From positions 1 to 64,000 of the forward strand of contig CADEEL010000013.1 of NCBI GenBank assembly GCA_902826335.1: 64,000 nucleotides of DNA, in the 5' to 3' direction. Position numbers and translations under genes: made by a program. Within the stretch, counting starts at the first letter, position 1, and each line of letters begins with the position of its first letter. Shown here piece by piece: positions 6,044 through 30,334 of the stretch. The DNA is from an uncultured Alphaproteobacteria bacterium. Lineage in GTDB: Bacteria > Pseudomonadota > Alphaproteobacteria > Caulobacterales > Aquidulcibacteraceae. Under the pieces are notes generated by a model, which was given only the letters and a program-made list of their open reading frames with translations, had not been told where the DNA came from and did no database searches.

Positions 6044-7025
6044 GCGTGCGCTCGCTCTCGGGCGGCGTCTCGCCGGCGATCAAGGCATTTATGGCGGGAT
6101 ACAGCACGTCAAGCGGGCCCAAAGCGTAGCGCGGCGCGCCGAAGGCGGCGATGTCGTCAGTCTGCTTGCGCAGCGCGGCGCGATCCTGCGCCAAGACGGG
6201 GATGTGGAAGGCGCGCAACAGCGCTTCCTTGAGCCAGGCGGGCGCCATGCCGCGCGGCGTGGCGAAATGCGCGAAGGGACGCACGCAGGTTTCGGTTTCG
6301 GGCGTGAAGAACACGGTGATGGCGAGGCGCAGGCCCTTGGGCCCCTCGAATGCGACCTGGCCCGTCGATGGCGGAAAAAAGCGGCCGATGCTGGCGGTGC
6401 GAAGGCCCTCCAGGAGGCGCGGCATGAGGGCCCGCGCGCGGGTGTTTTCCACATAACGGGCTTCCGCAAAAGTCGACCGTACACGGATGGTGACGTCAAC
6501 GGGGCGGCGCATTTCTCGCGCCCGAACGATGCCGGCGTGCAGGAAATGGGGATGGGCTGGATCAAGCAGGTTTTCAATGGCGTCAATGAGGCGCGCGCGC
6601 GAGGGGCGCACAGGCCAAAGGAATGTATCGAAGCCTTCTGCTTCAATCGGAAACGGGAGGCGCGGTTCGTCTTCCGGCGCTGGCGCAAGCGTCGTCCATA
6701 CCAGGCCGGCGCGTACGCGCGTCGGCAAGGCTTGCGCGCCGTGTTTGGCTGGTTGATCAACGCCCGGCGTCAACACGCAGGCGCCGTCGCCAGCAAAGCG
6801 CCAACCATGATAGGGGCACTCGATCGCGCCCGCTTCAACACGCCCACGCGAGAGCGCCATGTTGCGATGAGGGCAGCGATCGATCAGCACGGCGGGGCCG
6901 GCCGCGGATTGGAACACAACGAGCGGCGTATCCATCAGGCGCCGGGCCAATGGTCCGCGCCCAAGCTCTCGCACAGCCGCGACGGGGGCCCATCCGCTGG
7001 CGACGGCGGCGGGATACGCGCTCAC
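6027..7025 (-). CDS. Rieske non-haem iron oxygenase
   Basis: A 332-residue oxygenase with an N-terminal Rieske [2Fe-2S] domain (C51-P-H53 and C70-P-Y-H73-G-W) and a C-terminal mononuclear iron domain with N152-x2-D155-x2-H158-x4-H163. Such proteins hydroxylate or demethylate small molecules using electrons from a separate reductase; no reductase is encoded nearby. The start is GTG at 7025, overlapping the TGA of the gene upstream (GTGA), so translation is coupled. It is the last gene of the operon starting at 12063 and likely performs a late tailoring oxidation. Its final 17 bases overlap the converging adenylating-enzyme gene. Confidence 0.88.
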   Translation of the reverse strand: MSAYPAAVASGWAPVAAVRELGRGPLARRLMDTPLVVFQSAAGPAVLIDRCPHRNMALSRGRVEAGAIECPYHGWRFAGDGACVLTPGVDQPAKHGAQALPTRVRAGLVWTTLAPAPEDEPRLPFPIEAEGFDTFLWPVRPSRARLIDAIENLLDPAHPHFLHAGIVRAREMRRPVDVTIRVRSTFAEARYVENTRARALMPRLLEGLRTASIGRFFPPSTGQVAFEGPKGLRLAITVFFTPETETCVRPFAHFATPRGMAPAWLKEALLRAFHIPVLAQDRAALRKQTDDIAAFGAPRYALGPLDVLYPAINALIAGETPPESERTLRLNL

Positions 7026-8161
7026 AAGCCGCGCTCACGCATGAGTGGGGCGGCGATCTTGTTCAGCGCATGCTCGATCGCGGCGATCAGCGCGCGGCGC
7101 GATCGCGAGAGGTGCGCGACATAATAAGCGGAATATTCCAGCACGGCGCGCGCGCCGCGATTGCGCTTGAACGAGGCCGCGCCCGCGGAGCCGTTGAGCT
7201 TAGCGCCATGTTCGAGTGCGACTTGCGCAAGCAGTGCGCTGGCGATGCGGTAAAGCCCTTCGGCGGCGGGTCGGGCGGTGTCATAGCCCACGATCGGCGT
7301 GGTCAGCACGCCGCCGCGCAGGAAGCAGCCGACAATGCTGACGAGCGCACCATCGGCGTCGCGCAGGCCTCGGTACTGAAAAATTTCCGCGCGGTGGGTC
7401 ATATCAATAAAGGCCGCCGTGAACACTGGATTAAGTCTGGAATAGCGATCCAGATAGAGCATCGCGTAGAGTTCGGCGATCCTTTCAGCGTCTCCCGGGC
7501 GCAATTCATCGAGGCGGTCTATGTGCGCCGCATGCGCGGCGAGCAAGGTGAGATCGCGGCGCGTGTCGCGGCGGGGCGCCCAATCGGCGGCGAGATCGTC
7601 GGTGACGTAGATTTGCCGGCTGGGCAGCAAGCGCCAACCGGCTCGCCTGAACGCCGCGCACAGGTCAGGGTCTGACCAGTCATTGAGCGAGCGAACGGCG
7701 ATGACGTGTTCGGGGAATGTGTGCGTGAGCAGGGCGCCGATCGCGCCGATATCTTCGCCGCGCCATCCGTCATGCAGATTGGTCGAGAGCATCCAATTGC
7801 CCACATGCACAATCTTGTTGATGCGCGCCGCGCGCAGCGCCGCGCCCGCGCCGCTGGCGAGCACGGCGAGCGCCGGCGTCCATCGTCCCGCGTCGACAAG
7901 GCGAAGCTCTTCCTTGGCGTAGAGCGCGTAGGCGGTGTGCGGCAGGCAGACATAGGAATCTCCATATTCGCCGTCATTTATGGTGACGGGGTGGATACGG
8001 TCGTTCGAGGCGAGGCCCATCACACTGGTGCGCAAATTGGAGATCAGAGCCGGCGCGCCATGCGCCGCGAAGGCCTGGAGATAGGCGCGTTCCTTTGCGT
8101 GGGCGGGGTTCCAGCCGCCTGGCGGGCCGATCATTGGATCGAAGAGCGCGGGAGCGGTCAC
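7022..8161 (-). CDS. GNAT-like protein of the biosynthetic operon
   Basis: A 379-residue soluble protein that seems to have two halves. The N-terminal half contains SNLRTSVMGLASND and the unusual INDGEYGDSYVCLPHTAY. The C-terminal half (from about DELRPGDAERIAELY) has the order of a GNAT/FemAB-type acyltransferase fold, including YRGLRDADGALVSIVGCFLRGG, a beta-strand pair on either side of a conserved turn. I infer that it transfers an acyl or aminoacyl group to the pathway intermediate, but no catalytic residue can be named. GTG at 8161 is the start, in a GTGA overlap with the ATP-grasp gene; the longer frame upstream is antisense-like and rejected. Confidence 0.62.
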   Translation of the reverse strand: MTAPALFDPMIGPPGGWNPAHAKERAYLQAFAAHGAPALISNLRTSVMGLASNDRIHPVTINDGEYGDSYVCLPHTAYALYAKEELRLVDAGRWTPALAVLASGAGAALRAARINKIVHVGNWMLSTNLHDGWRGEDIGAIGALLTHTFPEHVIAVRSLNDWSDPDLCAAFRRAGWRLLPSRQIYVTDDLAADWAPRRDTRRDLTLLAAHAAHIDRLDELRPGDAERIAELYAMLYLDRYSRLNPVFTAAFIDMTHRAEIFQYRGLRDADGALVSIVGCFLRGGVLTTPIVGYDTARPAAEGLYRIASALLAQVALEHGAKLNGSAGAASFKRNRGARAVLEYSAYYVAHLSRSRRALIAAIEHALNKIAAPLMRERGL

Positions 8162-9309
8162 GCGATGGGCTCGCCGTTCCACTCGATGTCGTCCGTGCTT
8201 TGTCCGGACGCGGAGCGACCGCGGCTGAGGCCGATGGCGGTGAAGCGGGCGGCGTCCAGCAATGCGCCAAGAGCAAGCCACGGCTCGCCTGGAACATCCA
8301 GCACATCACGGCTGCGCTTGCGATCCCGATTGAAGTCGCGCCATCGCCCGTTCGCCAGAGCGTGCGGCGCGCCGAGCAGCCACATGGCCGGCGCCAAATG
8401 GCGGGCCTCGGCGCTCGGCGTCTGCAACGGCGCTTCGCCAAGAAAGGCGCGTGCAAGGCGCGGAGCGGCGTCAAACAAGTGCAAACCGCTGACGCCGCGC
8501 GGATTGCATTCGATCGGCGCGAGGCGCCCGTCAGGCGCGCGGATGACGTCGTAGGAAAGCTGCCCCGTCGCGCCTGTGGCGGCGGCGATTGCGCGCGCCA
8601 TGTCCAGCAAGGCCGGATCGCGATCCGTTTCGAAATAGAAGCTCGCGGAGCGGCCCAGCCGCCACAATGGTCGGTAGGCGGCGAAGGCGATGACTTCGCC
8701 GGCGCGGCACGCGGACCAGACGCAGACCTCTTCGCCTGGCGCGAACGCCTGCACGGCCCAGGGTTCTTGCGGCAAAGGCGAGACGGCGCCGAACGAGCGC
8801 GCGTCCGGGCGGATGCGCGCATGGGAGGCGAAGCGAGAATACTCGGGCTTGAGCACGATCTCGCGCGCGTGCGCGCGCCATGGGGCCAGTTCATCGCGCG
8901 ATGTGACGCGCGCTGTTTCCGGTGCGGCGAGGCCGAGGCCTCGCGCGAACGCCGCGAACGCGACCTTTGAGTGCAGCATACGAAGCGTATCGGGCGGCGG
9001 CGCAAACACGCGGTCCGCGAAGCCGAACCGTACGGCGGCCTCCGCCACATAGAACACTTCTTCGCACGTGGGGACGATGAGGCGCGGATCGAGGCGTGCG
9101 ACGAGGCTCGCCAATCCAAGCGCGAAGTCTTGAAACGCGAACCGGGGCGGGGCGAGGCGATGCGTACACGCGCGAAAGCGCGGCGAAAGGCGCGCGGTCC
9201 AGTTCGTAATGGAATCGGCAAGATGCGGCGTATGGCCCGCCGCCAGGAAACTGCGCGCTAGATCGAGCGCGATGGGCGCGCGCGCGCCGGTGATCAAGAT
9301 CGCGCTCAT
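8158..9309 (-). CDS. ATP-grasp ligase
   Basis: A 383-residue ATP-grasp enzyme, the family that joins a carboxylate to an amine or thiol through an acyl-phosphate. The N-terminus has a Rossmann-like start (ILITGARAPIALDLARSF) as in carbamoyl-phosphate-synthase-like members. The ATP-binding middle shows EIVLKPEYSRF with the conserved Lys and WAVQAFAPGEEVCVW, and the metal-binding end shows IECNPRGVSGLHLF (conserved E and N). Start ATG 9309 lies in an ATGA overlap with the upstream hydrolase gene. Together with the adenylating enzyme it suggests amide or peptide-like bond formation in the product. The substrate is unknown. Confidence 0.83.
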   Translation of the reverse strand: MSAILITGARAPIALDLARSFLAAGHTPHLADSITNWTARLSPRFRACTHRLAPPRFAFQDFALGLASLVARLDPRLIVPTCEEVFYVAEAAVRFGFADRVFAPPPDTLRMLHSKVAFAAFARGLGLAAPETARVTSRDELAPWRAHAREIVLKPEYSRFASHARIRPDARSFGAVSPLPQEPWAVQAFAPGEEVCVWSACRAGEVIAFAAYRPLWRLGRSASFYFETDRDPALLDMARAIAAATGATGQLSYDVIRAPDGRLAPIECNPRGVSGLHLFDAAPRLARAFLGEAPLQTPSAEARHLAPAMWLLGAPHALANGRWRDFNRDRKRSRDVLDVPGEPWLALGALLDAARFTAIGLSRGRSASGQSTDDIEWNGEPIA

Positions 9310-10082
9310 TCGAGCGGCGCCGGATCGTGACAATAGATAACGTCGCCTCCCGCGCGGGCGAAGGCGGCGATGCGGGCGCGCGTTATCTTGTCCGCCTCAG
9401 AATCGTCCATGATCCAGCGCGCGGGCGGTCCCGGCGGTCGATTCTCCATGACGGCGCAGGCGCACCATTGAGCGTCCGCCGCGTAGAGCAATGGCGGATC
9501 CAGTTTGGGCCAGACGAACCCGGTGTGACCGCGCATATGGCCGGGCAGCGGGACGGCGAGCACGGCGCCATCGCCAAACACGTCGCGCGCGGGGCCGAGG
9601 CCGAGCGGCGCCTCAGCCAGCGGGCGCGATCCAAAACGCACAATTCGCTCGGTGAAGTCTGCGGGCAGCAATTCGCGGAAAACGCCGTGGCGAAGGCGGG
9701 TGAGCCCTATTGCATTGAGATAATGATCGACGCCGGCGCCGTCCGCGTAGATGGGCGCTTCAGGATAATCGCGCAGTGCGGCGATGTGATCGGCGTGGAG
9801 GTGCGTAAGCAGGATCGCGGCGATGGCCTCCGGCGCGGGCCGCTGATCGCGCAGGAGACGGGGGCGGAGCGCCGCCGCATAGAGTCGCAGCGCTGCTGAT
9901 CGCGGGCCTTGCATCACGCGCGGGGCGTAACCGGTGTCGATGAGGCAGCGACCCATGGTGGGATGATCGAAGACGCCATAACGAACTGGGATATCGATCG
10001 CGCGCCAGGCGCCGCCGCGCAGAATGAGGCGCTCGGGCGCACGCACGAAGGCGCTGTTGTAAAAGACCGGACGCGCGCTCAT
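9306..10082 (-). CDS. Metallo-beta-lactamase-fold hydrolase
   Basis: A 258-residue metallo-beta-lactamase-fold protein. The zinc motif H94-L-H96-A-D98-H99 is intact, with further likely ligands H182 (PLPGHMRGHTG), D203 (YAADAQW) and H252 (YCHDP). The overall form, with CLIDTGYAPRV and ILLTHLHADHI, is closest to N-acyl-homoserine-lactonase-like members, so a lactone or thioester is a reasonable substrate class. In this operon it may cut an acyl thioester or open a lactone intermediate. It may also give self-protection; the sequence does not decide. ATG at 10082 overlaps the reductase gene stop (ATGA). Confidence 0.85.
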   Translation of the reverse strand: MSARPVFYNSAFVRAPERLILRGGAWRAIDIPVRYGVFDHPTMGRCLIDTGYAPRVMQGPRSAALRLYAAALRPRLLRDQRPAPEAIAAILLTHLHADHIAALRDYPEAPIYADGAGVDHYLNAIGLTRLRHGVFRELLPADFTERIVRFGSRPLAEAPLGLGPARDVFGDGAVLAVPLPGHMRGHTGFVWPKLDPPLLYAADAQWCACAVMENRPPGPPARWIMDDSEADKITRARIAAFARAGGDVIYCHDPAPLE

Positions 10083-11050
10083 GAGCGAGTTTTCTCGAAT
10101 GTGCGGGCGAGACCTTCATCGAACGTCACGCGCGGGCACCAGCCAAGTTGCGCCTTCGCGGCTGATATATCGAGCGTTTGGGTGTAGGCGAAGAGCGCCG
10201 CGCCATAGGCTGTAATGGCCGGCTCGGGCCGATTGGGACGGCTGGCGGCGAGCGCTTCGAGCGTTCGCGCGTAGGCGAGCACCGCCCAAATAGGGCGCGC
10301 GCGCCAGCGCAAGTTTTGGTTCGCGCGCGCGGCGGCGCGTTCGGCCACGTCGCGCACATTGAGAGCGACGCCGCCGGAAATATTAAAAATACGCTGGGTC
10401 AAGGCGGCGCTTGGTGTGTCGAGCGCCGCGAGCGCGGCGTCGGCCACATCGTCAACATAGGTCAGATCGGTGGCGGCGCGCCCGCCCTTCATAAGCGGCA
10501 AGGCGCGTTTCTCGGCGGCGGCCAGGAGACGCGGCAACAGGGTCGTATCGCCGGGGCCATAAAGCCCGCGTGGACGCAGAATGATGGGATCGAGATCGGA
10601 CGCCGCCAGGACCAGTGCCTCCGCTTGGCGTTTCGTATGCGCGTAGGCGTTGACGGGGCACGGCAGCGGCGCATCTTCGCGCACGTTCACCTGATCCTTG
10701 AATCTGAAATAGAGGCTCGGCGTTGAGATATGCACGAAGCGTTTCGCGCCAGCGGCGCGTGCGATGGCCAGCGCCGATTGCGTTCCGTGCACATTCGCGG
10801 CGTGAAATTCCCGGCGCGCGCCCCAGGGCGCGGAAAGCGCCGCGCAGTGGATAACTGCGTCGCAAGTCAAGCCTCTGTGTTGTGCGGCGGCGCTTAGGTC
10901 GCACGCAATCGGCGTCGCGCCGGCTGCGGCGAGGCGCGTTAATTTCGCTCGATCTCGGCCAAGCGCGATGACGTCGCGCCGATCGGCCAGCAATCGGCGC
11001 GTCAAGGCGCCGCCAAGGAATCCAGTCGCGCCGGTGACGAGAATGCGCAT
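10079..11050 (-). CDS. NAD-dependent epimerase/dehydratase-type reductase
   Basis: A 323-residue extended short-chain dehydrogenase. The cofactor loop GATGFLG is at residues 8-14, the active-site motif Y-A-H-T-K sits near residue 147, and RPRGLYGPGD follows as in the 3-beta-hydroxysteroid dehydrogenase / OleD-like branch. Members of that branch reduce a beta-keto acid made by a condensing enzyme, which fits the KAS III-like gene directly upstream (2 bases between them). I therefore infer reduction of a 3-keto intermediate, not sugar epimerisation. ATG 11050 is used; the longer frame runs into the upstream gene. Confidence 0.82.
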   Translation of the reverse strand: MRILVTGATGFLGGALTRRLLADRRDVIALGRDRAKLTRLAAAGATPIACDLSAAAQHRGLTCDAVIHCAALSAPWGARREFHAANVHGTQSALAIARAAGAKRFVHISTPSLYFRFKDQVNVREDAPLPCPVNAYAHTKRQAEALVLAASDLDPIILRPRGLYGPGDTTLLPRLLAAAEKRALPLMKGGRAATDLTYVDDVADAALAALDTPSAALTQRIFNISGGVALNVRDVAERAAARANQNLRWRARPIWAVLAYARTLEALAASRPNRPEPAITAYGAALFAYTQTLDISAAKAQLGWCPRVTFDEGLARTFEKTRS

Positions 11051-11052
11051 GC

Positions 11053-12063
11053 TCAAATCACGAGCGCGGCGCCGCCAAGCGATACGCCGGCGGAGGTTCC
11101 GAGCAGCAAGACCCTCATGCCGCGCTGGAGGCGGCCCTGGCCGCGCGCCTTGTGAAGCGCGATCGGCCACGACGCGGCGACCTGGTTGCCGATCTCGGCG
11201 ACGAGATCGACAACGCGATCAGCGGGAAAACCGCACCGCTTGATGATGTGGGCGAGGGCGTGTGGGCTGGCCTGGTGCGGTACGACAAGATCGACCTCGT
11301 CCTGGCGCCAGCCCGCCTTATCGAGCAGACGCGCGATGAAATCGGGCGCGGCTTCGGAACTCAAACGGTAAAGCTGCGCGCCCTTCATGTCGAACCACGC
11401 ATTGGCGGCGAAGACGTCATGTTCGGCATGAAAATCATAGCGCGTGCCGCCGGCGCGTAATTCGCAATATTCATAGCCTTCGGCATAGGTCTCCATGTGC
11501 GCCGCGCCGAGGCGATAGGGCGCATCGCCATCGCCGGCGCGTACGAGAAGCGCGGCCGCGCCATCGCCGAAGAGGCCGGCGGTGCGCGGATCGGTTGTCC
11601 ACGGCAGCGCGCGCGAGGCGATTTCAGATGTGACGATGAGAATATTTTCGGCGCGCCCCGCCGCGATGTGCAATGCGGCGACATCGAGCGCCACGAGCGC
11701 GCTGAGGCATGTGGCGTTGACGTCATAGGCCGGGCAGGGGTGTGTGTTCAGCCCAAGCTCCCGTTTGATCAGCGGCGCCGTTGCGGGGATTGGCTGGCGG
11801 CCCACCGCGGCCGCGAACAAGACAAGATCTAGTTCGCTTGCTTCAACGCCCGCTTCGGCAAGGGCGGCGCACGCCGCGTCCGCGCCCATGCGCTCTTGGG
11901 TTTCATCGCTGCTTGCGATGTGGCGCTGGCGCACGCCGCAATTGCGCTCGATCCAGCCGGGAGACAGGCCGTATTGGCTGTCAAGATCGCGCGACAGCGC
12001 GATCCTGTGCGGCAGGTAAACGCCGAGTCCCGCAATGAACGGCGTTGAAGAGGCCTGGACCAT
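11053..12063 (-). CDS. KAS III-like condensing enzyme
   Basis: A 336-residue thiolase-fold condensing enzyme related to FabH. The catalytic triad is visible: C119 in VNATCLSAL, H263 in VPHQASPHAL and N293 in GNQVAAS (FabH usually has GNTSAAS). GDGAAALLV and the closing GTSAGVSLGGAALV complete the pattern. It should join an acyl-CoA or acyl carrier protein thioester to another thioester. No acyl carrier protein is encoded nearby. It is the first gene of a six-gene leftward operon, so its promoter lies in 12064-12290. ATG 12063 has GGGA six bases upstream; ATG 12081 is less likely. Confidence 0.85.
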   Translation of the reverse strand: MVQASSTPFIAGLGVYLPHRIALSRDLDSQYGLSPGWIERNCGVRQRHIASSDETQERMGADAACAALAEAGVEASELDLVLFAAAVGRQPIPATAPLIKRELGLNTHPCPAYDVNATCLSALVALDVAALHIAAGRAENILIVTSEIASRALPWTTDPRTAGLFGDGAAALLVRAGDGDAPYRLGAAHMETYAEGYEYCELRAGGTRYDFHAEHDVFAANAWFDMKGAQLYRLSSEAAPDFIARLLDKAGWRQDEVDLVVPHQASPHALAHIIKRCGFPADRVVDLVAEIGNQVAASWPIALHKARGQGRLQRGMRVLLLGTSAGVSLGGAALVI

Positions 12064-12294
12064 AATCGTTCCCAAACGCATTCCAGGTTTGTGTGATCCC
12101 ACGGATGCGGCAAGCGTCAAAACTGGGGGCGGCGCGGCCGCTCTAAGTCCAGAATTGGGCGAAGATGGGGGCCCTCCGCAAGCCAGCATGGCGATTAACC
12201 GCCTATGAACGCGGGCTTGCGGGGCGTTCAGGCGCTGGCGGTCAGTATGGCTCCGAACCGAGGGAGGCTCCCCATGACGACCCGCTTCATCCGC

Positions 12295-13788
12295 TCAACC
12301 TGCGCCGGCTGGATCCATCGCCTCGATGTCGTTCTGCGCGCTCTGATGGTTTGACGCCGGTGCGCGTGGCGCAGCGAAGCCTTTTCTGGGCATGTCGCCC
12401 CAAGCGCGCTCACCATGCGCCCATTGCCAAAGACCCTGCAGACGCCAGATCGAATTAAGCTGGCGGTAGCCGAAATTCTCCAGCACCGCCGCGCCGGCCA
12501 GGCGCACAAGATCGCGCGCCTTGGGAAAGCGGCGCAGCTCGGCTTCCTCGATGGCCAGCGCGCCGACGCTGATGGCAACGCCAAAGGCGAACGACACCGC
12601 GAGATAAGCGAGCAGAAAATCGAACGAGAGAACGCCCAGCGCCCACATCAGCGGCATGAGGATGTAGCCGCAGAGCTCGAACACGGGGCCGAGCACATCG
12701 AATATGAGCACCTGTCCGAGCCCGATGGCGCCGACGCGGCCATAACGCGGATTGAACAGCATGGCCTTGTGGGTGAAGAACGTCTCCAGCGCGCCGCGAT
12801 GCCAGCGGGCGCGTTGGCGCGACAGCGTGCGCAAGGATTCCGGCGCCTCGGTCCAGCAGACCGGTTCGGGCACGAAAGCGATTCGATAAGGCTTGCCGCG
12901 CTCCAGAAAGGTGCGATGCAGGCGCACGACCAATTCCATATCCTCGCCGACGGTTCCGCGCGCGTAGCCGCCAATGTCAAGCAGCGCGGCGCGGCGGAAA
13001 AGGCCGAAAGCGCCGGAGACGATCGTCAGTGCGCCGATGCGGCTCCAGGCCAGGCGCGCGAGCAGGAAGGCGCGCAGATATTCGATGGTTTGAAACAGCG
13101 CCCAGATATTGCGCGCCACGCCGATTTCTACGATGCGGCCATCCTCGACGCGGCAGCCATTGGCGATGCGCACCGTGCCGCCAACGGCGATGACCCGTTC
13201 TGGATCCTCGACAAACGGCTGCACGGCGCGCAGCAGTGAATCGGGCTCCAGTAAGGAATCCGCGTCCATCGCGCAGACAATTGGCGCGCGGGCCAAATTG
13301 AGGCCGGCGTTCAGCGCATCGGCCTTGCCGCCATTCAGCTTGTCAATCACGATCAATTGCGGATAGCGCGCCGAGCCGTAGACGCCGCGAATGGGCGCGT
13401 GCGTCAGAGCGGGGTCATAGTCGCGCTCGATCGGCTGAAGATCGAAGGCGGCGATGAGCACGGCGAGCGTTTCATCCTTCGATCCGTCATTGATGACGAT
13501 GATTTCAAAGTGCGGATAGTCGAGCTGCAGAAGCGAGTGGACGCTGTTTTCGACGGTGGCGGATTCGTTATAGGCCGGCGCGAGCAGGGCGATCGGCGGG
13601 GCGATGGCGGCCGAGCGGCGCCAGAGCACGCGCGCGCGCGGCTCAGGCGGATCGCTGGCGAGTGCGCGCTGGGCCACAATCAGCTGGGCGAGATAGATGA
13701 GGTTTTGCAGCACGCCGGCGGCGATGATAAGCCACGCCAGCGCATGCGCCACGGCGACTGCGGCGGAGTTGAGGAGGGCTTCAGTCAC
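12295..13788 (-). CDS. Membrane glycosyltransferase, family 2
   Basis: A 497-residue inner-membrane GT2 enzyme of the processive polysaccharide-synthase type. One membrane helix opens the protein (about 10-40). The catalytic domain has the nucleotide-binding APAYNES (about 70-76), NDGSKDE, the D175-A-D177 metal motif, G-E282-D283 as base, and Q325-R-A-R-W329. Three to four helices follow (about 350-440). The last 40 residues are a polar tail. The start is GTG 13788 in a GTGA overlap with the HEAT-repeat gene, so this is the third gene of an operon with that protein and a YaiO-like barrel. It is likely to build an exopolysaccharide in the membrane; the sugar is unknown. Confidence 0.86.
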   Translation of the reverse strand: MTEALLNSAAVAVAHALAWLIIAAGVLQNLIYLAQLIVAQRALASDPPEPRARVLWRRSAAIAPPIALLAPAYNESATVENSVHSLLQLDYPHFEIIVINDGSKDETLAVLIAAFDLQPIERDYDPALTHAPIRGVYGSARYPQLIVIDKLNGGKADALNAGLNLARAPIVCAMDADSLLEPDSLLRAVQPFVEDPERVIAVGGTVRIANGCRVEDGRIVEIGVARNIWALFQTIEYLRAFLLARLAWSRIGALTIVSGAFGLFRRAALLDIGGYARGTVGEDMELVVRLHRTFLERGKPYRIAFVPEPVCWTEAPESLRTLSRQRARWHRGALETFFTHKAMLFNPRYGRVGAIGLGQVLIFDVLGPVFELCGYILMPLMWALGVLSFDFLLAYLAVSFAFGVAISVGALAIEEAELRRFPKARDLVRLAGAAVLENFGYRQLNSIWRLQGLWQWAHGERAWGDMPRKGFAAPRAPASNHQSAQNDIEAMDPAGAG

Positions 13789-14822
13789 AGCCGGCGATCC
13801 CGCGCGGCGCCGCGTTGCGGGGCCAGCGCACGTAGGGATTGCGCCACTGACACGATGTGCGCCGCGCCGCGCTCATTCAGTTTGTGCAGGGCTTCTTCGG
13901 CTCGAAAGCGCACCCACCAGACCTCATCCTCAAGCAGGCGCGCGACCCGCGCGTGATGTTCGAACGCGCCGATGCGGCCGAGGGCTTCGGCGGCCTTGAG
14001 GCGCACGCACCAATGCGCATCTTCGGTCGCGGCGGCGAGCACGGGGGCGGCGTCCGCGTACCCGAGTGCGCCCAGCGCGCTGATCGCCGCGGCGCGCACG
14101 TCGGCGTTATCGTCTCGCGCCGCCCGCGCCACCGGTTCGAGACAGGAGAGTTTTCCTGTTTCTCCCAACGCTCGGAGCAGCGCGCACTTTTCAGCCGGGT
14201 CGGCCGCACTGGCGAGGGCGCCCAGCGAACCAGGAACATCGGCCTCCACGCTGGTCTCAATCAACTCATAGAGCGCGGGGGATTTGTGCGCGCCGGGCCG
14301 TGCGGCGATTTCCAGAAGCCGTGTGAGATCGGCGCCGACGCCGAGTTCGGCACGTGTTTTCAGCGCCGCGATCACCACGCGCAGCTGGCGTGAGCGTTCG
14401 GCGTGCTTCAACACGTTTAGCGTGCGCGTATCTGGAAACAGGCGAAGCGCTTCGATCGAGGCGATTCGCTCGGTTGTGCGGCCGCGGCGGGCCTGGCGCC
14501 GCATGCGCTCGTCCAGACCGATCTCACGCAACAGCGCCACTAAACGCGTGCGCGCCGGCCCACGCATGATGGCGGCCGCGTCCAGGGCGGTCTCGATCAG
14601 CAGCATACGATCGACCGATGTCGCGATTGAGAGATTGGGCCGTGTATCGCCGGAGAGCGCGAAGTGGAGCAGGGCCTTTGAAATCGCCGCACGCCGCTCT
14701 GGCAAGTTCGTCATGCCGTGCGCGCGATAGAGGCGGGCGAGTATGAGAGCGCCCATCGTACCGCACGCCAGCGCGGCGAGCGCGACCGCCGATAGCCACA
14801 CGAAGGCGAGGAGGCTCGGCAT
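13785..14822 (-). CDS. Membrane-anchored HEAT-repeat protein
   Basis: A 345-residue protein with one N-terminal membrane helix (about 3-30, LLAFVWLSAVALAALACG) and a long helical solenoid. The clearest HEAT units are near the end: DDNADVRAAAISALGALGYADAAPVL, EDAHWCVRLKAAEALGRIG, and EDEVWWVRFRAEEALHKLNE, each about 31 residues. Such proteins are scaffolds. Its position between a polysaccharide synthase and a TPR/outer-membrane barrel suggests that it links synthesis to export. ATG 14822 lies one base after the upstream stop. A longer frame starting at 14867 would run into the upstream gene and is rejected. Confidence 0.82.
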   Translation of the reverse strand: MPSLLAFVWLSAVALAALACGTMGALILARLYRAHGMTNLPERRAAISKALLHFALSGDTRPNLSIATSVDRMLLIETALDAAAIMRGPARTRLVALLREIGLDERMRRQARRGRTTERIASIEALRLFPDTRTLNVLKHAERSRQLRVVIAALKTRAELGVGADLTRLLEIAARPGAHKSPALYELIETSVEADVPGSLGALASAADPAEKCALLRALGETGKLSCLEPVARAARDDNADVRAAAISALGALGYADAAPVLAAATEDAHWCVRLKAAEALGRIGAFEHHARVARLLEDEVWWVRFRAEEALHKLNERGAAHIVSVAQSLRALAPQRGAARDRRL

Positions 14823-14823
14823 G

Positions 14824-15915
14824 TCAGAGCGTCCAGGCCACAGCGAGCAGCGCTTCGGTGCGCTCATAGGCCTCGCGCTGCTCGCGCGTCAGGCCAATTC
14901 GCAAGCGTCTGTTCGGCGAGAGTTGAAATGCGACGCCCAGAGTTAGCGCCCGAACCTCAACTGTGGCGCCATCGGAAGATTCGGGCGCGTCCGCCCAGCT
15001 CGCATCGATGGCGAGGCCGCCGCGCAAGCGCCACGTTGCCCCCAGTGCGTAGCCGGGGCGCAAATCACCGAATTCGTCGCGGACGACAGCGCCTCTCACC
15101 TGCGTGGACAGCGCCTCGCCGAACCGGCGTGCGGCGCGCAGCTCGAGCTTGTCCACGTCGCCTGTGGCGTAGTGCGCGAAGGTCGCCGCCGCCGCGAAAT
15201 CCCAAGCGGGCGCCAGATCGGGCGCTTCGACTTCGAGGCGCATGAGGCGCTCGGGACGGAAGTCAGCATCTGGCGTTCCACCCAAGGCCAACGTCCAGAT
15301 CGCGCCATAGGCCGCGCGGGCGAGACGCGCCTCGGCGTAAACATCTGTCCGCCCAAAGCGCTCGGCCGCTTCGATGGCGCCGGCGTAGGACCAGGGTCCG
15401 GCGCGGCGGGAGAGGGCGAAGGCGGCTTCGCGCCAGCTTGGCAGATCGTTGGAGAGCGTGCTGGCGGCGGCGGACACGTCGATGCGCCAGCGCGCTGGAG
15501 GCCGTGTTGCAGTCCGCGCCGCGAGGGCGCGACGCAGGTCAAGCACTTCGCCGTCGCCGGCGCGTGTGGGCGAGACGTGGGCCAGGTGCGCGGCGGCGCC
15601 CGCCGCGTCGCCCGCGCGCAGATCGAGCCGGGCGAGCGCGACGTGCGCGTCGTCATAATTGGGGGCGAGGCGCAAAGTCTGGCCGAAGGCGGCGCGGGCG
15701 GCTTGGTCGCGCCCGAGCGCGGCATGGCTGAGGCCCAGTTCGAGCCAGGCGTCCGCGTCGGCGGGGTGCGCGGCCAAGTGGCGTTCAAGCTGTGATGCCG
15801 CCTCCTCGAAGCGGCCGGCATGACGCGCCTGCCGGGCGGTTTCCTGCGCTGGCGCGGGGGCCTGGCAGCTCTCAAGAATGGCGGGGGGGATGGCGATGAG
15901 CAGCGCTAGAGGCAT
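14824..15915 (-). CDS. TPR protein with YaiO-type outer-membrane barrel
   Basis: A 363-residue exported protein. A short hydrophobic leader (with IPPAILESCQ, possibly a lipoprotein signal) is followed by TPR units (about 25-130: ARHAGRFEEAASQLERHLAA, ALGRDQAARAAFGQTLRL, and LDLRAGDAAGAAAHL). The rest is beta-rich with alternating aromatic strands and ends in a terminal hydrophobic strand (ALLAVAWTL), as in YaiO-family outer-membrane barrels. In E. coli yaiO sits by the glycosyltransferase gene yaiP; here the partner glycosyltransferase is two genes downstream. It probably forms the outer-membrane exit for the polysaccharide. It is the first gene of the three-gene operon, with GAGG nine bases before ATG 15915. 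Confidence 0.78.
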   Translation of the reverse strand: MPLALLIAIPPAILESCQAPAPAQETARQARHAGRFEEAASQLERHLAAHPADADAWLELGLSHAALGRDQAARAAFGQTLRLAPNYDDAHVALARLDLRAGDAAGAAAHLAHVSPTRAGDGEVLDLRRALAARTATRPPARWRIDVSAAASTLSNDLPSWREAAFALSRRAGPWSYAGAIEAAERFGRTDVYAEARLARAAYGAIWTLALGGTPDADFRPERLMRLEVEAPDLAPAWDFAAAATFAHYATGDVDKLELRAARRFGEALSTQVRGAVVRDEFGDLRPGYALGATWRLRGGLAIDASWADAPESSDGATVEVRALTLGVAFQLSPNRRLRIGLTREQREAYERTEALLAVAWTL

Positions 15916-16210
15916 GGCGCAAGCCTCCCCGGCGCGCCGCCACGCCCGTCACCGCTGGGGCCGGGGGAGATTGCGAGGTGTGGCATTCAAAATCCGGGCG
16001 CCAGGCGCCGCACAGCGCGACGGGCCCATCTTGCCTGTTAAGTCTAAATTCCTGGTGAGGTTCGCGGGCGTTCCGGCGACCCATTCTGGTTAACGCAAGC
16101 TTGCCGCGCGGACGCGCGCGGCGCCTCCGTACAATCCCTTAGGTGGTCGTCCCGAATGGGCGCGGGTTGCGCCGGCGCCTAGCTTCGTCCCAAGCGCAGG
16201 GAGAATTGTC

Positions 16211-16882
16211 ATGGCCGCTGGTCTCATTCAGGAACGCCCACATCCCGATTTCGCCTCCCAGGCGCGGCCGCAAGCCTTCGCCGATGGAATTGGCCTGACG
16301 CCGCTCTCGGCGCCCTATGCGCCCAATGAAGAGATTTACGCTGAAGAGGACGCCACCAAGTGCGTCTACAAGGTGCTCTCCGGCGCGGTGCGCATCACGC
16401 GGCATTTGAGCGATGGACGCCGGCACATCAGCGCTTTTTATCTACCAGGCGAGATTTTCGGGTTTGAGCCTGGCGCCGCGCACCGCTTCGCCGCCGAAGC
16501 GATCGCCGACAGCCGCATCGCGATGGTGCGGCGCGCGCAGATTGAGGACGCGGCGCTGCGCGATCCGGGCGTGGGGCGCGCAATGTGGGATCTCGCCGCG
16601 CAGGATCTTGAGCGCCTGCAAGAACATATGCTTCTGCTGGGACGGCGATCGGCCGCGCAGCGCGTCGCCGCGTTTCTGATCGAATTGTCTGAGCGGCTGA
16701 ACAATCGCGATACGGTTGACGTGCCGATGTCACGCACGGACATCGCGGATTATCTTGGGCTGACGATTGAAACCGTGTCGCGCACGCTGACGCAGTTCGA
16801 GCGCGACGGGTTGATCGAAATGCCGTCCGCGCGGCACATTTTTATCAAGAATCGCGCGGCGCTGGAACGGCTTGATTCTTGA
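16211..16882 (+). CDS. fixK: Crp/Fnr-family regulator, FixK-like
   Basis: A 223-residue transcription factor. Residues 40-130 form the cyclic-nucleotide-type sensor domain, and the C-terminal winged helix has PMSRTDIADYLGLTIETVSRTL, whose E..SR recognition residues favour TTGAT half-sites. There is no N-terminal cysteine cluster for an iron-sulphur cluster (only one Cys, in KCVYK), so it is FixK-like and not an oxygen-sensing FNR. It lies next to fixLJ and upstream of cco, matching the classical FixLJ to FixK cascade. GGGAG precedes the ATG. The 295 bases before it, shared with the exopolysaccharide operon, hold no recognisable FNR box, only AT-richer patches near 16035 and 16090. Confidence 0.85.
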   Translation: MAAGLIQERPHPDFASQARPQAFADGIGLTPLSAPYAPNEEIYAEEDATKCVYKVLSGAVRITRHLSDGRRHISAFYLPGEIFGFEPGAAHRFAAEAIADSRIAMVRRAQIEDAALRDPGVGRAMWDLAAQDLERLQEHMLLLGRRSAAQRVAAFLIELSERLNNRDTVDVPMSRTDIADYLGLTIETVSRTLTQFERDGLIEMPSARHIFIKNRAALERLDS

Positions 16883-16887
16883 ACTCG

Positions 16888-17280
16888 TCAACCCGCGCTG
16901 AGACTTGCTCTGATCGCGTCAGTCAGGGCGTCGTCCAGGATCGGCTTTTCAATGAGCTTAACGTCCGCCGCGCGCGCGCGCCGACGCAGCGCCGCGTTCG
17001 GGTTGGTGGCGAGCAAGAAGGTGCGCGGGGCTTGGCCTGCCTTCTTAAGCGCTTCGACAAGGTCGAGGCCGGTGAATACAGGCAATTGGTGTTCCACGAC
17101 CAGCACATCGCACGCGACACGCATGCGTCCAGAGAGCAGGGCCAGCGCGTCTGGGAAAGGCGTTACGTCAAAGCCGCCGACGGCCATGGCGAATTGAAAT
17201 GAGTGGAGAACCGCCGGATCGGAGTCGACGACAAAGACCCGGGCGCCGCCCTCTCGTGTCGGGAATTGGTTTGTCGTCAT
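16888..17280 (-). CDS. Receiver-domain protein lacking the phospho-acceptor Asp
   Basis: A 130-residue stand-alone receiver domain. The acidic pocket (VVDSDPAV, D19 and D21) and the conserved Lys (LIEKPI, K112) are present, but the site normally occupied by the phosphorylated Asp reads VVEHQLP, with Glu at 63, and the switch Thr is replaced (LLATN). It cannot be phosphorylated in the usual way; a Glu can mimic a permanently active state. It is the last of three leftward genes after fixL and fixJ, 76 bases beyond fixJ, and may have its own promoter since a FixK-like box lies at 17332-17345. A role in tuning FixLJ output is inference. Confidence 0.8.
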   Translation of the reverse strand: MTTNQFPTREGGARVFVVDSDPAVLHSFQFAMAVGGFDVTPFPDALALLSGRMRVACDVLVVEHQLPVFTGLDLVEALKKAGQAPRTFLLATNPNAALRRRARAADVKLIEKPILDDALTDAIRASLSAG

Positions 17281-17331
17281 GAGCGCCGCCTAAGGTTGAC
17301 GCGCATTCAAGCTTATTCGCATCGCCCTTCT

Positions 17332-17345
17332 TTGACCCAACGCAA
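17332..17345. promoter_or_regulatory. Possible FixK/FNR half-perfect box
   Basis: TTGACCCAACGCAA: TTGAC, four bases, CGCAA. It lies 52 bases upstream of the receiver gene start at 17280 and differs from the TTGAT-N4-ATCAA consensus at three of ten positions. The same TTGAC-N4-CGCAA form recurs at 19490-19503. Weak on its own. Confidence 0.35.
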
Positions 17346-17356
17346 ATGCGCGCTGC

Positions 17357-17965
17357 CTAGCTGCTCGCGAGAATCGCCATACGCACGAGGTCCGACAAGC
17401 TCGCGGCCTCCATCTTAGCCATGACGTTCGCGCGGTAGATTTCCACCGTGCGCGGACTGATGCCAAGGTTCTGGGCGATGACCTTGTTGGCCATGCCGGC
17501 GACAAGTCCGTCCAATACTTCACGCTCCCGCCCACTCAAGGTCGCGATGCGGGCGACGGCTGCGGCGCGCGCGGCGGCGCGCTCCCCCGAAACGCTGTCG
17601 CGCTGGAGCGCGGCGCGCACGGCGGCGAGTAGCGTTTCGTCGTCGAACGGCTTTTCTATGAAATCCTGCGCGCCGGCCTTCATGGCTTCAACAGCGAGTG
17701 GCACGTCGCCATGGCCGGTGATGACGATGATCTGGCGATGCACGCCGCGGCGGCGTAATTCAGCGATCAGGTCGAGCCCACCCATCGCCGGCATGCGGAT
17801 ATCCGTGACAATGCAGCCAGGTTCGAGCGCGGGCGCGCGATCCAGCAAGGCTTCCGCGCTTTCATAAGCGCGAACGTCGAAACCGGCGGTCGAGAGTAGA
17901 AACGCGACGGATTCGCGCACGGCTGGATCGTCATCCACGATATGAACAACGGGCTCGGCGGTCAT
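17357..17965 (-). CDS. fixJ: Two-component response regulator FixJ
   Basis: A 202-residue response regulator: receiver domain (acid pocket D11-D13, phospho-acceptor D55 in VTDIRMP, switch Thr in VITGHGD, Lys in FIEKPF) followed by a LuxR/FixJ-type helix-turn-helix (LSGREREVLDGLVAGMANKVIAQNLGISPRTVEIYRANVMAKM). The length matches FixJ (about 205). ATG 17965 overlaps the fixL stop (ATGA), so the pair is translated together. FixJ activated by FixL under low oxygen is expected to switch on fixK, which lies just beyond. The 7 codons before this ATG belong to the open frame only. Confidence 0.92.
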   Translation of the reverse strand: MTAEPVVHIVDDDPAVRESVAFLLSTAGFDVRAYESAEALLDRAPALEPGCIVTDIRMPAMGGLDLIAELRRRGVHRQIIVITGHGDVPLAVEAMKAGAQDFIEKPFDDETLLAAVRAALQRDSVSGERAAARAAAVARIATLSGREREVLDGLVAGMANKVIAQNLGISPRTVEIYRANVMAKMEAASLSDLVRMAILASS

Positions 17966-19449
17966 CGCGCGCTCGCCGCCTTGCACCGCGGGAGTGTAAA
18001 TTTAAACAACGCGCCGCCGGTTGGGTTGGCCTCAAACCACATCTTGCCGCCATGATTTTCAACAATGGTGCGCGAGATGGACAGACCAACGCCCATGCCG
18101 TCTGGCTTCGAGGTGACGAAGGGCTGAAACAGGCGCGGCGCGATCTCCGGCACCACGCCCGGGCCGCGATCGGCGACGCAGACGAGCGTCAGTTCCTCGC
18201 CATGGGGTGCGACGGAAATGGTGAGGTCGCGCGTCGACATCTCGCTCATGGCGTCGGTCGCGTTGCGGATGAGATTGATGAGAACCTGCTGGATTTGCAC
18301 GCGGTCAGCCTCAACGCAATCGGCGCTTTCGTCGAACGAGAATGTGTGACGGACACCTTGATCGGCCAGGCCGACGAGGGCGAGCGCGCTCGCCTCCTCG
18401 ATGATTTTGCGCAGGCTCTGTGGCGACGCCTCCGCTTCGCGGCGAGTTACGAAATCACGCAGGCGGCGAATGATTTCTCCCGCGCGCAGAGCCTGATCGC
18501 CGGCCTTGTCGACGGCGTCACGAATGCGGGCGGCGTCGATCACTGACTCTTCCAGCAGGCGGACAGAGCCTTTAAGATAATTCGATATGGCAGAGAGTGG
18601 CTGATTAAGTTCGTGCGCAAGAGCGGATGCCATTTCGCCCAAGGCCGTTAGCCGAGAAACGTGAACAAGTTCGGATTGAAGCTCCTGCAGGCGCGCCTCG
18701 GTGCGTTGGCGCCTGGAGATGTCACGAATGAAGCCGGTGAAGCAGCGCCGCCCGCCGGCTTGTACTTCGCCGATCGCGAGTTCGATGGGAAAGGTCGCGC
18801 CGTCGCGCCGCTTGGCCGTGACGATGCGGCCAAGGCCGATGATGCGCTTTTCGCCGGTCTCGAGGTAACGCGATATGTAGCGATCATGCCTGCTGTGATC
18901 CGGCTCGGGCATCAGCATATCGACATTGGCGCCGATGACCTCTTCGGCGCGCCAGCCGAACATGCGCTCGGCCGTGGCGCTGAAGGATTGAATGAGGCCG
19001 CCTTCATCGATGACGATGATTGCGTCCGGCGCCGTTTCCATAATGGATTGGAGGCGCGCCTCGCGTGCGCGCAATTCCACATTGGCGGCTTCGGCGTCCT
19101 GGTAGTGACGACGCATGCGTTCGCCGACGCCGGCGACCGCGAGGGCGACGAGAAGGAACAACAGGGCGTGCGCGACGTTCGCGCCCGTGGCGTCAGCGCC
19201 GGCGGCTAACGCGCCGGCGGCCAGACCCAACAGCGTCGCGAAGCTGCCGCCGGCGAATCCCGCCAGCGCCGCGCCAAGAAGCACGGGAAGAAGAAAGGGC
19301 AGCAGCGAAAAATCCGCTTGGCCGCTTGGCGCGACCGCGTGGAAGGCCCAGGCGGCCGCGACCGCCGCTGCGATCATCGCATAGGCGAGGGGCGGGTGAT
19401 CCCCGGCGCGGCGCCACAAGCGCGCGATTGATTGCCCGATCGGCTCCAT
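17962..19449 (-). CDS. fixL: Oxygen-sensing histidine kinase FixL
   Basis: A 495-residue sensor kinase. Membrane helices fill residues 20-110, a PAS domain spans about 135-250, and the kinase core follows. The PAS has the haem-pocket residues of FixL: His188 in DHSRHDRYISRY as iron ligand, and Arg208 in IIGLGRIVTAKRRDG, which contacts oxygen in Bradyrhizobium FixL. The phospho-His is H279 in ALAHELNQPL, followed by N-box LINLIRNATDA, DRGPGV and GMGVGLSISR. When oxygen falls, the kinase is released from inhibition and phosphorylates FixJ. It is divergent from a universal stress gene, with a FixK-like box between them. Confidence 0.92.
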   Translation of the reverse strand: MEPIGQSIARLWRRAGDHPPLAYAMIAAAVAAAWAFHAVAPSGQADFSLLPFLLPVLLGAALAGFAGGSFATLLGLAAGALAAGADATGANVAHALLFLLVALAVAGVGERMRRHYQDAEAANVELRAREARLQSIMETAPDAIIVIDEGGLIQSFSATAERMFGWRAEEVIGANVDMLMPEPDHSRHDRYISRYLETGEKRIIGLGRIVTAKRRDGATFPIELAIGEVQAGGRRCFTGFIRDISRRQRTEARLQELQSELVHVSRLTALGEMASALAHELNQPLSAISNYLKGSVRLLEESVIDAARIRDAVDKAGDQALRAGEIIRRLRDFVTRREAEASPQSLRKIIEEASALALVGLADQGVRHTFSFDESADCVEADRVQIQQVLINLIRNATDAMSEMSTRDLTISVAPHGEELTLVCVADRGPGVVPEIAPRLFQPFVTSKPDGMGVGLSISRTIVENHGGKMWFEANPTGGALFKFTLPRCKAASAR

Positions 19450-19489
19450 TAGGTCCGCTTAGACCTCATTTGGCCGCGCCGCCAAGGGC

Positions 19490-19503
19490 TTGCGCCAAGT
19501 CAA
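19490..19503. promoter_or_regulatory. Possible FixK-type box between fixL and a stress gene
   Basis: TTGCGCCAAGTCAA, which reads TTGACTTGGCGCAA on the other strand (TTGAC-N4-CGCAA). It is centred about 55 bases upstream of the stress-protein ATG (19552) and about 47 bases from the fixL start (19449). Outer TTG/CAA bases match the FNR/FixK consensus. Confidence 0.4.
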
Positions 19504-19551
19504 GGCTGGCCGCCGGCTCGATGCGCAGATAAAGGAAGAAGAGGATCGGCC

Positions 19552-20385
19552 ATGACAATCAAGGATGTGTTCGCCCCAGTGTTCGGCGAGGAGCACGACG
19601 AGGCGGCTTTGGGTGCTCTCGAAACCGTCGCGCTGTTCGAAAGCGCGCACAAGGCGGTGCTGCTGATCACGCCGTTGCCAGAGCCGGTGGCCGTCGGCGA
19701 CGGGGGGATGACGACGGTGCTGAGCGACATCATTGCGCGCATGCACGACGAGGCGCGCGCCGCGCGCGCGCAATTGGATAAGCGCCTGGCGAATGCGGGC
19801 GCGGAGATCCGAACGGTCGAGACCTGGGCGCATCTGGCCGCGGACACCGCGATCACCCATGCGCGCCACGCCGATCTATCGGTCATCGCTTTGTCAAAGA
19901 AGGGGCAGGCCGGCGAGGCGCGGCGTGAAGTGCTCGAAGGGATGGTGATGGAGTCGGGGCGCCCCGTGCTCGCCATTCCAGCGGGCTGCAAGGCGCCAGC
20001 GCGGTTCGCGCGCGTGTTCATAGCCTGGGATGGCAGCGGCAAGGCCGCGCGCGCCGTGGGCGATGCGGCGCCGTTTCTGGCGACGGCCGACGAAGTCATT
20101 ATCGGGACGGTCGATGCAAAGCCCGGCGCGGGCGGTGTCGGCGCAGCGCCTGGGGCCGATATCGCCGCGCATCTGGCGCGACATGGGTGCAAGGTCGATG
20201 TGCGCAATTATGACGGGTTGGGACGGGGCGCGGGCAAAGCCCTGATCGAGGGCGCGTTCGAGGCGGGCGCGGACCTCATCGTCATGGGCGCCTATCGCCA
20301 TGCGCGGCTGCAGCAGGCCTTGTTCGGCGGCGTCACGCGCACGATCTTGGACGAATCCAAACTGCCGCTGCTGATTTCGCACTGA
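19552..20385 (+). CDS. Tandem universal stress protein
   Basis: A 277-residue protein with two UspA-like domains (about 1-145 and 150-277). The second has the better ATP-binding signature, IVMGAYRHARLQQALFGGVTRTIL (G-x2-R-x9-G..T), while in the first it is replaced by ALSKKGQAGEARREVLEGMV. Genes of this type are commonly under FixK/FNR control. Position fits: it is divergent from fixL, near cco, and has a candidate box at 19490-19503. Cytoplasmic; role in energy-limitation survival is inferred from the family. Confidence 0.87.
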   Translation: MTIKDVFAPVFGEEHDEAALGALETVALFESAHKAVLLITPLPEPVAVGDGGMTTVLSDIIARMHDEARAARAQLDKRLANAGAEIRTVETWAHLAADTAITHARHADLSVIALSKKGQAGEARREVLEGMVMESGRPVLAIPAGCKAPARFARVFIAWDGSGKAARAVGDAAPFLATADEVIIGTVDAKPGAGGVGAAPGADIAAHLARHGCKVDVRNYDGLGRGAGKALIEGAFEAGADLIVMGAYRHARLQQALFGGVTRTILDESKLPLLISH

Positions 20386-20422
20386 TGTCAGCGCGGAGCT
20401 AAGAAGCTAAAAGGGAGCGTCC

Positions 20423-20803
20423 ATGACCGGCCTATCGACTGTTGTATTGCGCTTGGCGCGTAATCCGGACGCCGGCTATCCGGACGGCGATCCGGCGCGC
20501 GGCTACGCCATCGTGGCGCCGCTCGATGGGGAGGGCCATCTGGACGCCAGCGCGTGGCGCGGCGCCAAGGAGAAGTGCACCGTCAACCGTTTTTCTCCGG
20601 ATCCGGATGAACATGCCGATGGCTGGCTGTCGCATCGCGGTTCGCACTGGTACTTTCGCTATGACGAAGAAGACGAGGGGCCGGATGAGCCGGTCTTTCG
20701 CCTTGGCGAGCATCGCCTGGCCATCGGCGAATATGTGACGATTCATGAAGCGGAGGGCGAAGCGCTGGTCTATCGCGTTTCCGATGTGCGCGCGACGCGG
20801 TGA
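20423..20803 (+). CDS. Conserved hypothetical protein, 126 aa
   Basis: An acidic soluble protein, read as one compact beta-rich domain with no signal or membrane segment. Notable runs are GYAIVAPLDGEGHL, WLSHRGSHWYFRYDEEDEG, FRLGEHRLAIGEYVTIHE. I have an impression of similar proteins beside stress and respiration genes in other alphaproteobacteria but know no function. GGGAG lies six bases before the ATG. It follows the stress gene by 37 bases and precedes the cytochrome gene by the same distance, so all three may be one transcript. Confidence 0.72.
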   Translation: MTGLSTVVLRLARNPDAGYPDGDPARGYAIVAPLDGEGHLDASAWRGAKEKCTVNRFSPDPDEHADGWLSHRGSHWYFRYDEEDEGPDEPVFRLGEHRLAIGEYVTIHEAEGEALVYRVSDVRATR

Positions 20804-20840
20804 TGGTCTCGGCGCTTAAGATCGTGAGGAGGGATGCACC

Positions 20841-21191
20841 ATGCGCCTTCGTGGTTTGATCGCCGTTCTCGGGCTGGTTTTGCTGGCGGCGTGCTCGCAC
20901 GCAGCCTCACAGACGCCGCCGCGCCGCGATCTGGTCGGCGAGGGGCGCGCGCTCGTTGAAGTGTATTGCATTTCCTGTCACGCGATCGGCGAGACGGGCG
21001 AGAGCCGGCTTGCCGAAGCGCCGCCGTTTCGCACCCTCTCCGAGCGCTATCCGATCACGGCGCTCGAGGAGGCGTTCGCGGAAGGCGTGTTGGTCGGCCA
21101 TCCGGCGATGCCGGAATTCCGGCTCGAGCCCGATCAGATCGATGCGCTGGTCGCCTATTTGGAATCGATTCAGCCGCGCCGGGGCGGCTGA
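20841..21191 (+). CDS. Cytochrome c lipoprotein
   Basis: A 116-residue single-haem c-type cytochrome. The leader ends in LLAAC (Cys18), a good lipobox, so it is probably anchored in the membrane facing the periplasm. The haem motif is CISCH (about 44-48) and the likely sixth ligand is Met in HPAMPEF. The closing helix LEPDQIDALVAYLESI is typical of class I cytochrome c. It may carry electrons to the cbb3 oxidase whose genes face it. The last 22 bases overlap the end of ccoS on the opposite strand. RBS GAGGAGG lies upstream of ATG 20841. Confidence 0.88.
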   Translation: MRLRGLIAVLGLVLLAACSHAASQTPPRRDLVGEGRALVEVYCISCHAIGETGESRLAEAPPFRTLSERYPITALEEAFAEGVLVGHPAMPEFRLEPDQIDALVAYLESIQPRRGG

Positions 21192-21340
21192 GGGCTTTCA
21201 TCATCCTCGTCGATGAGGATGCGATGGGCGGCGCCTTCGATGTCTTCGTACTGGCCGGTGCGCAGCGCCCAGATGAAGGCGCATAGCCCCAACGCGCCCA
21301 TGAACACGGCGGCGGGAATGAGCCAGATCACAATGTCCAT
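21170..21340 (-). CDS. ccoS: Cytochrome oxidase maturation protein CcoS
   Basis: A 56-residue single-span membrane protein. MDIVIWLIPAAVFMGALGLCAFIWAL is followed by RTGQYEDIEGAAHRIL, matching the CcoS signature (short helix then GQYDDLxGxAxRIL) and ending in an acidic tail. CcoS is needed to insert haem and copper into CcoN. ATG 21340 starts 13 bases inside the 3' end of ccoI, so it is the last gene of ccoGHIS. Confidence 0.9.
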   Translation of the reverse strand: MDIVIWLIPAAVFMGALGLCAFIWALRTGQYEDIEGAAHRILIDEDDESPQPPRRG

Positions 21341-29132: not shown

Positions 29133-29146
29133 TTGATCTAAATCAA
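29133..29146. promoter_or_regulatory. Perfect FNR/FixK box upstream of ccoN
   Basis: TTGATCTAAATCAA matches the TTGAT-N4-ATCAA consensus at every position. It lies 57-70 bases before ccoN (leftward, start 29076) and 48-61 bases before the small rightward membrane protein gene (29194), so it can serve both. The FixK-like factor encoded at 16211-16882 is the likely ligand. Confidence 0.9.
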
Positions 29147-30320: not shown

Positions 30321-30334
30321 TTGACGCCGATCAA
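30321..30334. promoter_or_regulatory. Probable FNR/FixK box between stress gene and channel
   Basis: TTGACGCCGATCAA matches the TTGAT-N4-ATCAA consensus at nine of ten positions. It lies midway between two divergent genes, 37 bases from the stress protein start and 49 bases from the ion channel start. Confidence 0.7.

Follow-up and report, generated by a model that had tools for sequence, protein, structure and literature searches.

Organization of the locus

The window analyzed here is a stretch of 64,000 nucleotides from an uncultured member of the Aquidulcibacteraceae (Alphaproteobacteria; assembly GCA_902826335.1, contig CADEEL010000013.1, positions 1 to 64,000), lying on contig C13 of a host genome of 2.9 Mb in 66 contigs. 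Its minus strand carries three consecutive genes encoding, in order, a tetratricopeptide repeat (TPR) protein with a YaiO-family outer-membrane beta-barrel, a membrane-anchored HEAT-repeat protein and a processive-type family 2 glycosyltransferase (GT2) (Table 1). This triple, proposed in the initial annotation, was confirmed by profile matches, AlphaFold2 models and the same gene order in relatives. The three genes probably constitute a synthase-dependent polysaccharide secretion module in which the HEAT protein is a cytosolic subunit of GT2, with control by receiver-domain proteins in most relatives.

The genes had been described as overlapping or abutting. The HEAT and GT2 genes do share 4 nt (GTGA), and a single base separates the YaiO stop codon from the likely HEAT start (TGAcATG). 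The ATG at 14822 is more likely to be this start than the one at 14867 first assigned, because the proteins of relatives begin with MLSLVWL or MSGLLLLWW; the HEAT gene thus abuts the YaiO gene and does not overlap it.

The YaiO protein matched TIGR04390 with 77.9 bits (E 1.1e-21; cut-off 32) and Pfam PF19413 with 24.2 bits (cut-off 23.9), with TPRs preceding the barrel. Its AlphaFold2 model, built with 45 homologues, consists of seven TPR helices and a 14-strand barrel (predicted local distance difference test, pLDDT, 93.4), in keeping with the 12-16 strands named beforehand as a test of the barrel. A Foldseek search with this model gave OmpG, a monomeric 14-strand porin, as the top match, and BcsC and PelB, known exopolysaccharide exporters, were among the matches. 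BLASTP gave no match between the YaiO proteins of E. coli and of the window, so their kinship rests on profiles.

GT2 matched Pfam Glyco_tranf_2_3 (E 2e-29), and its best NCBIfam match was PgaC/IcaA (TIGR03937; E 1e-42), where its 146.6 bits fall well under the cut-off of 422.3. The motifs D101, DAD 175-177, GED 281-283 and QRARW 325-329 were invariant at their key residues in 10 homologues, and of the hydrophobic segments over threshold one is N-terminal and two are C-terminal. The enzyme therefore combines the D, DxD, (E/G)ED and QxxRW motifs with C-terminal transmembrane (TM) helices, the features that define processive GT2 enzymes, and is predicted to be a processive-type sugar polymerase.

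Table 1. Features of the three-gene module in the window
Feature	Position	Strand	Basis
Putative channel for polysaccharide export: TPRs plus YaiO-family outer-membrane beta-barrel, 363 aa	14824..15915	-	TIGR04390, Pfam YaiO, AlphaFold2 model, Foldseek
TPR helices, residues 23-136, predicted periplasmic	15508..15849	-	DSSP on AlphaFold2 model; TPR_19
14-strand barrel, residues 143-362	14830..15489	-	AlphaFold2 model
Membrane-anchored HEAT-repeat protein, 345 aa (360 aa from ATG at 14867)	13785..14822	-	HEAT_2; AlphaFold2; start from relatives
Single TM helix of HEAT protein, positive charges C-terminal to helix	14757..14813	-	Hydropathy 2.14; residues 19-37 of 360-aa form
Processive-type glycosyltransferase of family GT2, 497 aa, starting with GTG; three hydrophobic segments over threshold	12295..13788	-	Pfam/NCBIfam, motifs
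QxxRW motif (QRARW) of processive GT2 synthases	12802..12816	-	Conserved in homologue alignment

Distribution of the module

Among 61 relatives, YaiO was found in 6 genomes and GT2 in 7, the six YaiO genomes all included. Across 289 genomes sampled class-wide, YaiO matches over the cut-off and GT2 occurred in the same seven genomes (hypergeometric P ~3e-14). The co-occurrence of the three genes elsewhere, put forward in the initial annotation as a check, was thus strongly borne out, with the same order in relatives and identical YaiO and GT2 sets (7/7 of 289). As these sets are identical, the module occurs sporadically yet moves as one unit. In the GT2 tree, the named relatives nearest to the window belong to the Alphaproteobacteria (Maricaulaceae, Caulobacteraceae and Sphingomonadales).

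For a wider survey, GT2 similarity was the sole criterion by which 80 loci were drawn from a named genome collection, and the HEAT gene was sought afterwards; 75 of the loci were uncut, with room upstream of GT2. The HEAT gene lay directly upstream of GT2 in 72 of these 75 loci, the exceptions being a truncated GT2 fragment (L048) and two Nitrospira loci considered below. Annotated plasmids added HEAT-GT2 pairs in Deinococcus, Planococcus, Bacteroides and the haloarchaea Haloarcula and Halosolutus, and the pairing persisted down to 33-37% GT2 identity (Bacteroides, Planococcus). The window has the same core pair, in which the gene for a HEAT protein with an N-terminal TM helix immediately precedes a GT2 gene of this clade, and its genome contains a single HEAT gene of such kind. 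Pairwise distances correlated at 0.78 between HEAT and GT2, and at 0.62 and 0.63 between YaiO and HEAT or GT2, shared ancestry adding to all three values. HEAT and GT2 are therefore an almost inseparable pair, from archaea to bacteria.

Two loci deserve separate mention. The module of L074, from a record titled as a Klebsiella pneumoniae metagenome-assembled genome (MAG), is nearest to that of a proteobacterial MAG (L062), and the organism label is probably wrong. On the Planococcus maritimus plasmid (L120), genes for a CotH kinase, a polyphosphate-polymerase-domain protein and a DUF4956 protein precede the HEAT-GT2 pair, which represents a different cell-envelope setting.

YaiO is the optional part of the module. 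It was detected in 47 of the 75 loci by our own profile, and TIGR04390 added at least 7 more, mostly with YaiO after GT2, in Neomarinimicrobiota and Bacteroidota. Actinomycetota, Firmicutes and haloarchaea supplied 13 loci (one species being represented twice), every one of which had the HEAT-GT2 pair and lacked YaiO; such pairs, kept without an outer membrane or YaiO, occur in Solirubrobacter, Gaiella, Halolactibacillus, Paenibacillus, Planococcus, Haloarcula and Halosolutus. Mapped on the GT2 tree, the presence of YaiO changes 12 times, which is less often than in shuffles; well-supported branches force at least 8 of these changes. YaiO is most likely an exporter added in diderms.

The HEAT protein and its topology

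The HEAT protein matched HEAT_2 (E 6e-17), and its AlphaFold2 model (62 homologues; pLDDT 91.9) shows a long N-terminal helix, including the TM part, followed by an all-helical solenoid. The solved structures related to it are those of generic HEAT or designed alphaRep proteins, so the fold alone is no guide to function.

A single N-terminal TM helix was present in 62 of 62 HEAT proteins. Lysine and arginine were more numerous in the 15 residues after this helix than before it in 57 of the 62 (mean 4.9 vs 1.0). Read from 14867, the window protein was an exception, with three such residues before the helix and two after; the start at 14822 removes the three residues before the helix, and the protein now fits the bias. 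Since the positive charges follow the helix, the positive-inside rule places the HEAT domain most likely in the cytosol, where it would be unable to reach an outer-membrane barrel and able to sit on the cytosolic glycosyltransferase domain. Because of this topology, and because the pair is kept in loci without YaiO, the HEAT protein is most likely a cytosolic partner or subunit of the synthase rather than a link to the outer membrane.

Signalling genes next to the module

The initial annotation took the module to consist of three parts and missed the response-regulator and kinase genes beside most relatives. In 65 of the 75 uncut loci, an open reading frame (ORF) for a response regulator directly precedes the block, in the same orientation and within about 1.1 kb. 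Most of these regulators (44 of 65) are short, single-receiver proteins of fewer than 215 aa, and the phosphorylated aspartate is retained in 76 of 78 aligned receivers. Histidine kinase and Hpt genes are also frequent neighbours. The position of the regulator suggests phosphorelay control of the module and, because receivers without an output domain adjoin a synthase whose HEAT subunit is cytosolic, direct control at the protein level is suggested.

Proteins combining Hpt, GGDEF and receiver domains are encoded directly upstream of HEAT-GT2 in Neomarinimicrobiota (L080:3945-5480) and Halolactibacillus (L110:4220-5878); phosphorelay and cyclic di-GMP (c-di-GMP) signalling may meet there.

Proposed mechanism and alternatives

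In the mechanism proposed here, GT2 would use a cytosolic nucleotide-sugar to build a sugar polymer and would move the chain over the inner membrane, as expected from its family; genes for a sugar-phosphate nucleotidyltransferase and glmS adjoin a haloarchaeal copy, that of Halosolutus. The HEAT protein, anchored in the inner membrane and facing the cytosol, would dock on GT2 and gate or stabilize it, as its topology and near-invariant pairing suggest. The TPR/YaiO barrel would carry the polymer through the outer membrane, with the TPRs toward the periplasm. The upstream receiver-domain protein would be the last member of a histidine kinase/Hpt/GGDEF phosphorelay, and its most likely job would be to switch HEAT-GT2 post-translationally, filling the place that PilZ, PgaD or MshEN has in c-di-GMP-controlled synthases. 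As a more specific and tentative proposal, a single-domain response regulator, phosphorylated via the kinase/Hpt relay, might dock on the HEAT protein and so switch GT2 directly, in a synthase class common to bacteria and archaea to which diderms add the YaiO exporter.

Several observations weigh against this mechanism. No receiver gene adjoins the triple in the window. The nearest one, at 16888-17280, lies about 1 kb away, past an opposite-strand CRP/FNR-type gene, and has glutamate at the phosphorylation site; as it is neither adjacent nor normal at this site, the idea that this FixLJ-linked receiver is the lost partner was not supported. Both the window copy and the sister copy in genome G013 would have lost, or never had, an adjoining receiver gene. 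In the two Nitrospira loci (L095, L108), the HEAT gene lies kilobases from GT2, with opposite-strand genes between. In two relatives (L016, 9603-10259; L020, 9446-9928), the middle protein is much shorter, at about 160-220 residues, and HEAT repeats are few or absent, so the full solenoid is not always needed; a response regulator is still encoded directly upstream of YaiO in both. Finally, the YaiO proteins of the window clade (window, 15820-15915; L017, L018, L019, L033, L035) have no clear Sec signal peptide, while most other members have one. The N-terminus of the window protein, MPLALLIAIPPAILESC, is without lysine or arginine. Either the start codons in this clade have been called wrongly, or these proteins are exported in an unusual way.

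The initial annotation regarded the HEAT protein as a periplasm-facing scaffold joining the synthase to the YaiO exporter, a role that agrees with the gene order in most Proteobacteria, where the HEAT gene is the middle one of the three. The conserved synthesis and export unit implied by that proposal was upheld. The scaffold itself was rejected and is now very unlikely, given the charge bias that puts the HEAT domain of 57 of 62 proteins in the cytosol and the retention of HEAT-GT2 without any YaiO in monoderms and archaea; moreover, in Neomarinimicrobiota and one gammaproteobacterial MAG, YaiO follows GT2 and the HEAT gene is not between them.

It is unlikely, though less so, that the HEAT protein is only a non-regulatory assembly or stability factor for GT2, with the two-component genes acting on transcription and not on the enzyme. 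Pairs without a neighbouring receiver (the window, L019, L062, L074, L119 and L120) are consistent with such a role, and some of the upstream proteins could target transcription or c-di-GMP; however, the 44 single-domain receivers have no output domain of their own, which makes a protein target likely. There is also a small chance that GT2 is not a polymerase and glycosylates a lipid or protein, YaiO exporting or displaying something else. GT2 is indeed well under the cut-off of every named synthase family, and no paper was found in which the function of YaiO had been tested. Against this stand the complete set of processive motifs with C-terminal hydrophobic segments, and the barrel and TPR architecture common to the Bcs, Pel and Nfr exporters (Foldseek; PMC8669472). 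The preferred reading remains that the HEAT protein is a cytosolic subunit of the synthase.

Comparison with known systems

The NfrA/NfrB proteins of E. coli form the NGR exopolysaccharide system (PMC8669469, PMC8669472). As in the window, an inner-membrane processive GT2 and an outer-membrane TPR and barrel protein constitute its core and the genes overlap, and Nfr glycosyltransferase homologues occasionally occur in Gram-positive bacteria without NfrA, as GT2 does here without YaiO (PMC8669469, PMC8669472). The Nfr system differs by a fused MshEN domain that binds c-di-GMP, a 16-strand barrel and the absence of a HEAT protein (PMC8669469, PMC8669472), whereas the window system has a separate HEAT partner, a 14-strand barrel and, in most relatives, receiver genes.

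PgaABCD, responsible for poly-N-acetylglucosamine, resembles the module in its TPR and barrel exporter and in PgaC, the nearest NCBIfam family to GT2; in contrast, the window enzyme is under the PgaC cut-off, its barrel is of the YaiO type, and PgaB deacetylase and PgaD are missing. BcsA and BcsC likewise pair a GT2 carrying QxxRW with a TPR and barrel exporter of similar fold. BcsC has 16 strands and many TPRs, BcsA is under PilZ control, and BcsB belongs to the cellulose system; the module described here has no BcsB counterpart. No c-di-GMP receptor part (PgaD, PilZ or MshEN) was present among the Pfam and NCBIfam matches of the three window proteins.

The parallel with E. coli yaiP and yaiO drawn in the initial annotation is a loose one. 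The yaiO-yaiX-yaiP-yaiS locus is similar only in having a YaiO-family barrel near a GT2, YaiP being 25% identical to the window enzyme; it has no HEAT gene and contains instead the yaiX acyltransferase gene, interrupted by IS2, and the yaiS deacetylase gene.

In the open-licence PubMed Central literature, no paper was found to describe a HEAT-GT2-YaiO module, in agreement with the earlier statement that no described three-part system of this form was known. The genes have nonetheless been seen before, since annotators already name individual proteins, for instance in Mesorhizobium ciceri WSM1271, which has a complete annotated set (MESCI_RS32000-RS32015). The Rubrivivax EmbRS and Pseudomonas stutzeri EPS273 loci are different systems.

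Genes surrounding the module

Downstream, on the same strand (7022-12189), a cluster encodes a KAS III/FabH-like protein, an OleD-like short-chain dehydrogenase/reductase (SDR), an MBL-fold hydrolase, an ATP-grasp-like protein (PRK06849) and a further protein; it resembles a small pathway for a lipid or a secondary metabolite. It was rejected as part of the module, since the relatives searched gave no matches to these genes near the triple, apart from one unrelated weak SDR match in L029.

On the other side (16211-23583) lie a FixLJ-like kinase/regulator pair, a CRP/FNR-type regulator gene that diverges from the YaiO gene, a copper-type P-ATPase gene and, identified by eye, a small CcoS-like ORF. 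These genes suggest a microaerobic regulon beside the triple. The intergenic region between yaiO and the fnr-type gene (15916-16210) contained no FNR/FixK box at up to one mismatch. Two exact TTGAN6TCAA sites are present at 29133-29146 and 30321-30334, TTGATCTAAATCAA being a perfect FNR/FixK-like box, and none is near the YaiO promoter.

Concluding remarks

Synthase-dependent polysaccharide systems are mostly understood as machines switched by c-di-GMP. A synthase paired with a HEAT protein from haloarchaea to Proteobacteria, and usually encoded next to a phosphorelay, would represent another mode of running such an enzyme. YaiO, a polymerase chain reaction marker for E. coli without a tested function in the papers found, gains a testable role as an exporter, and with so few parts the module should be easy to test in ordinary laboratory strains.

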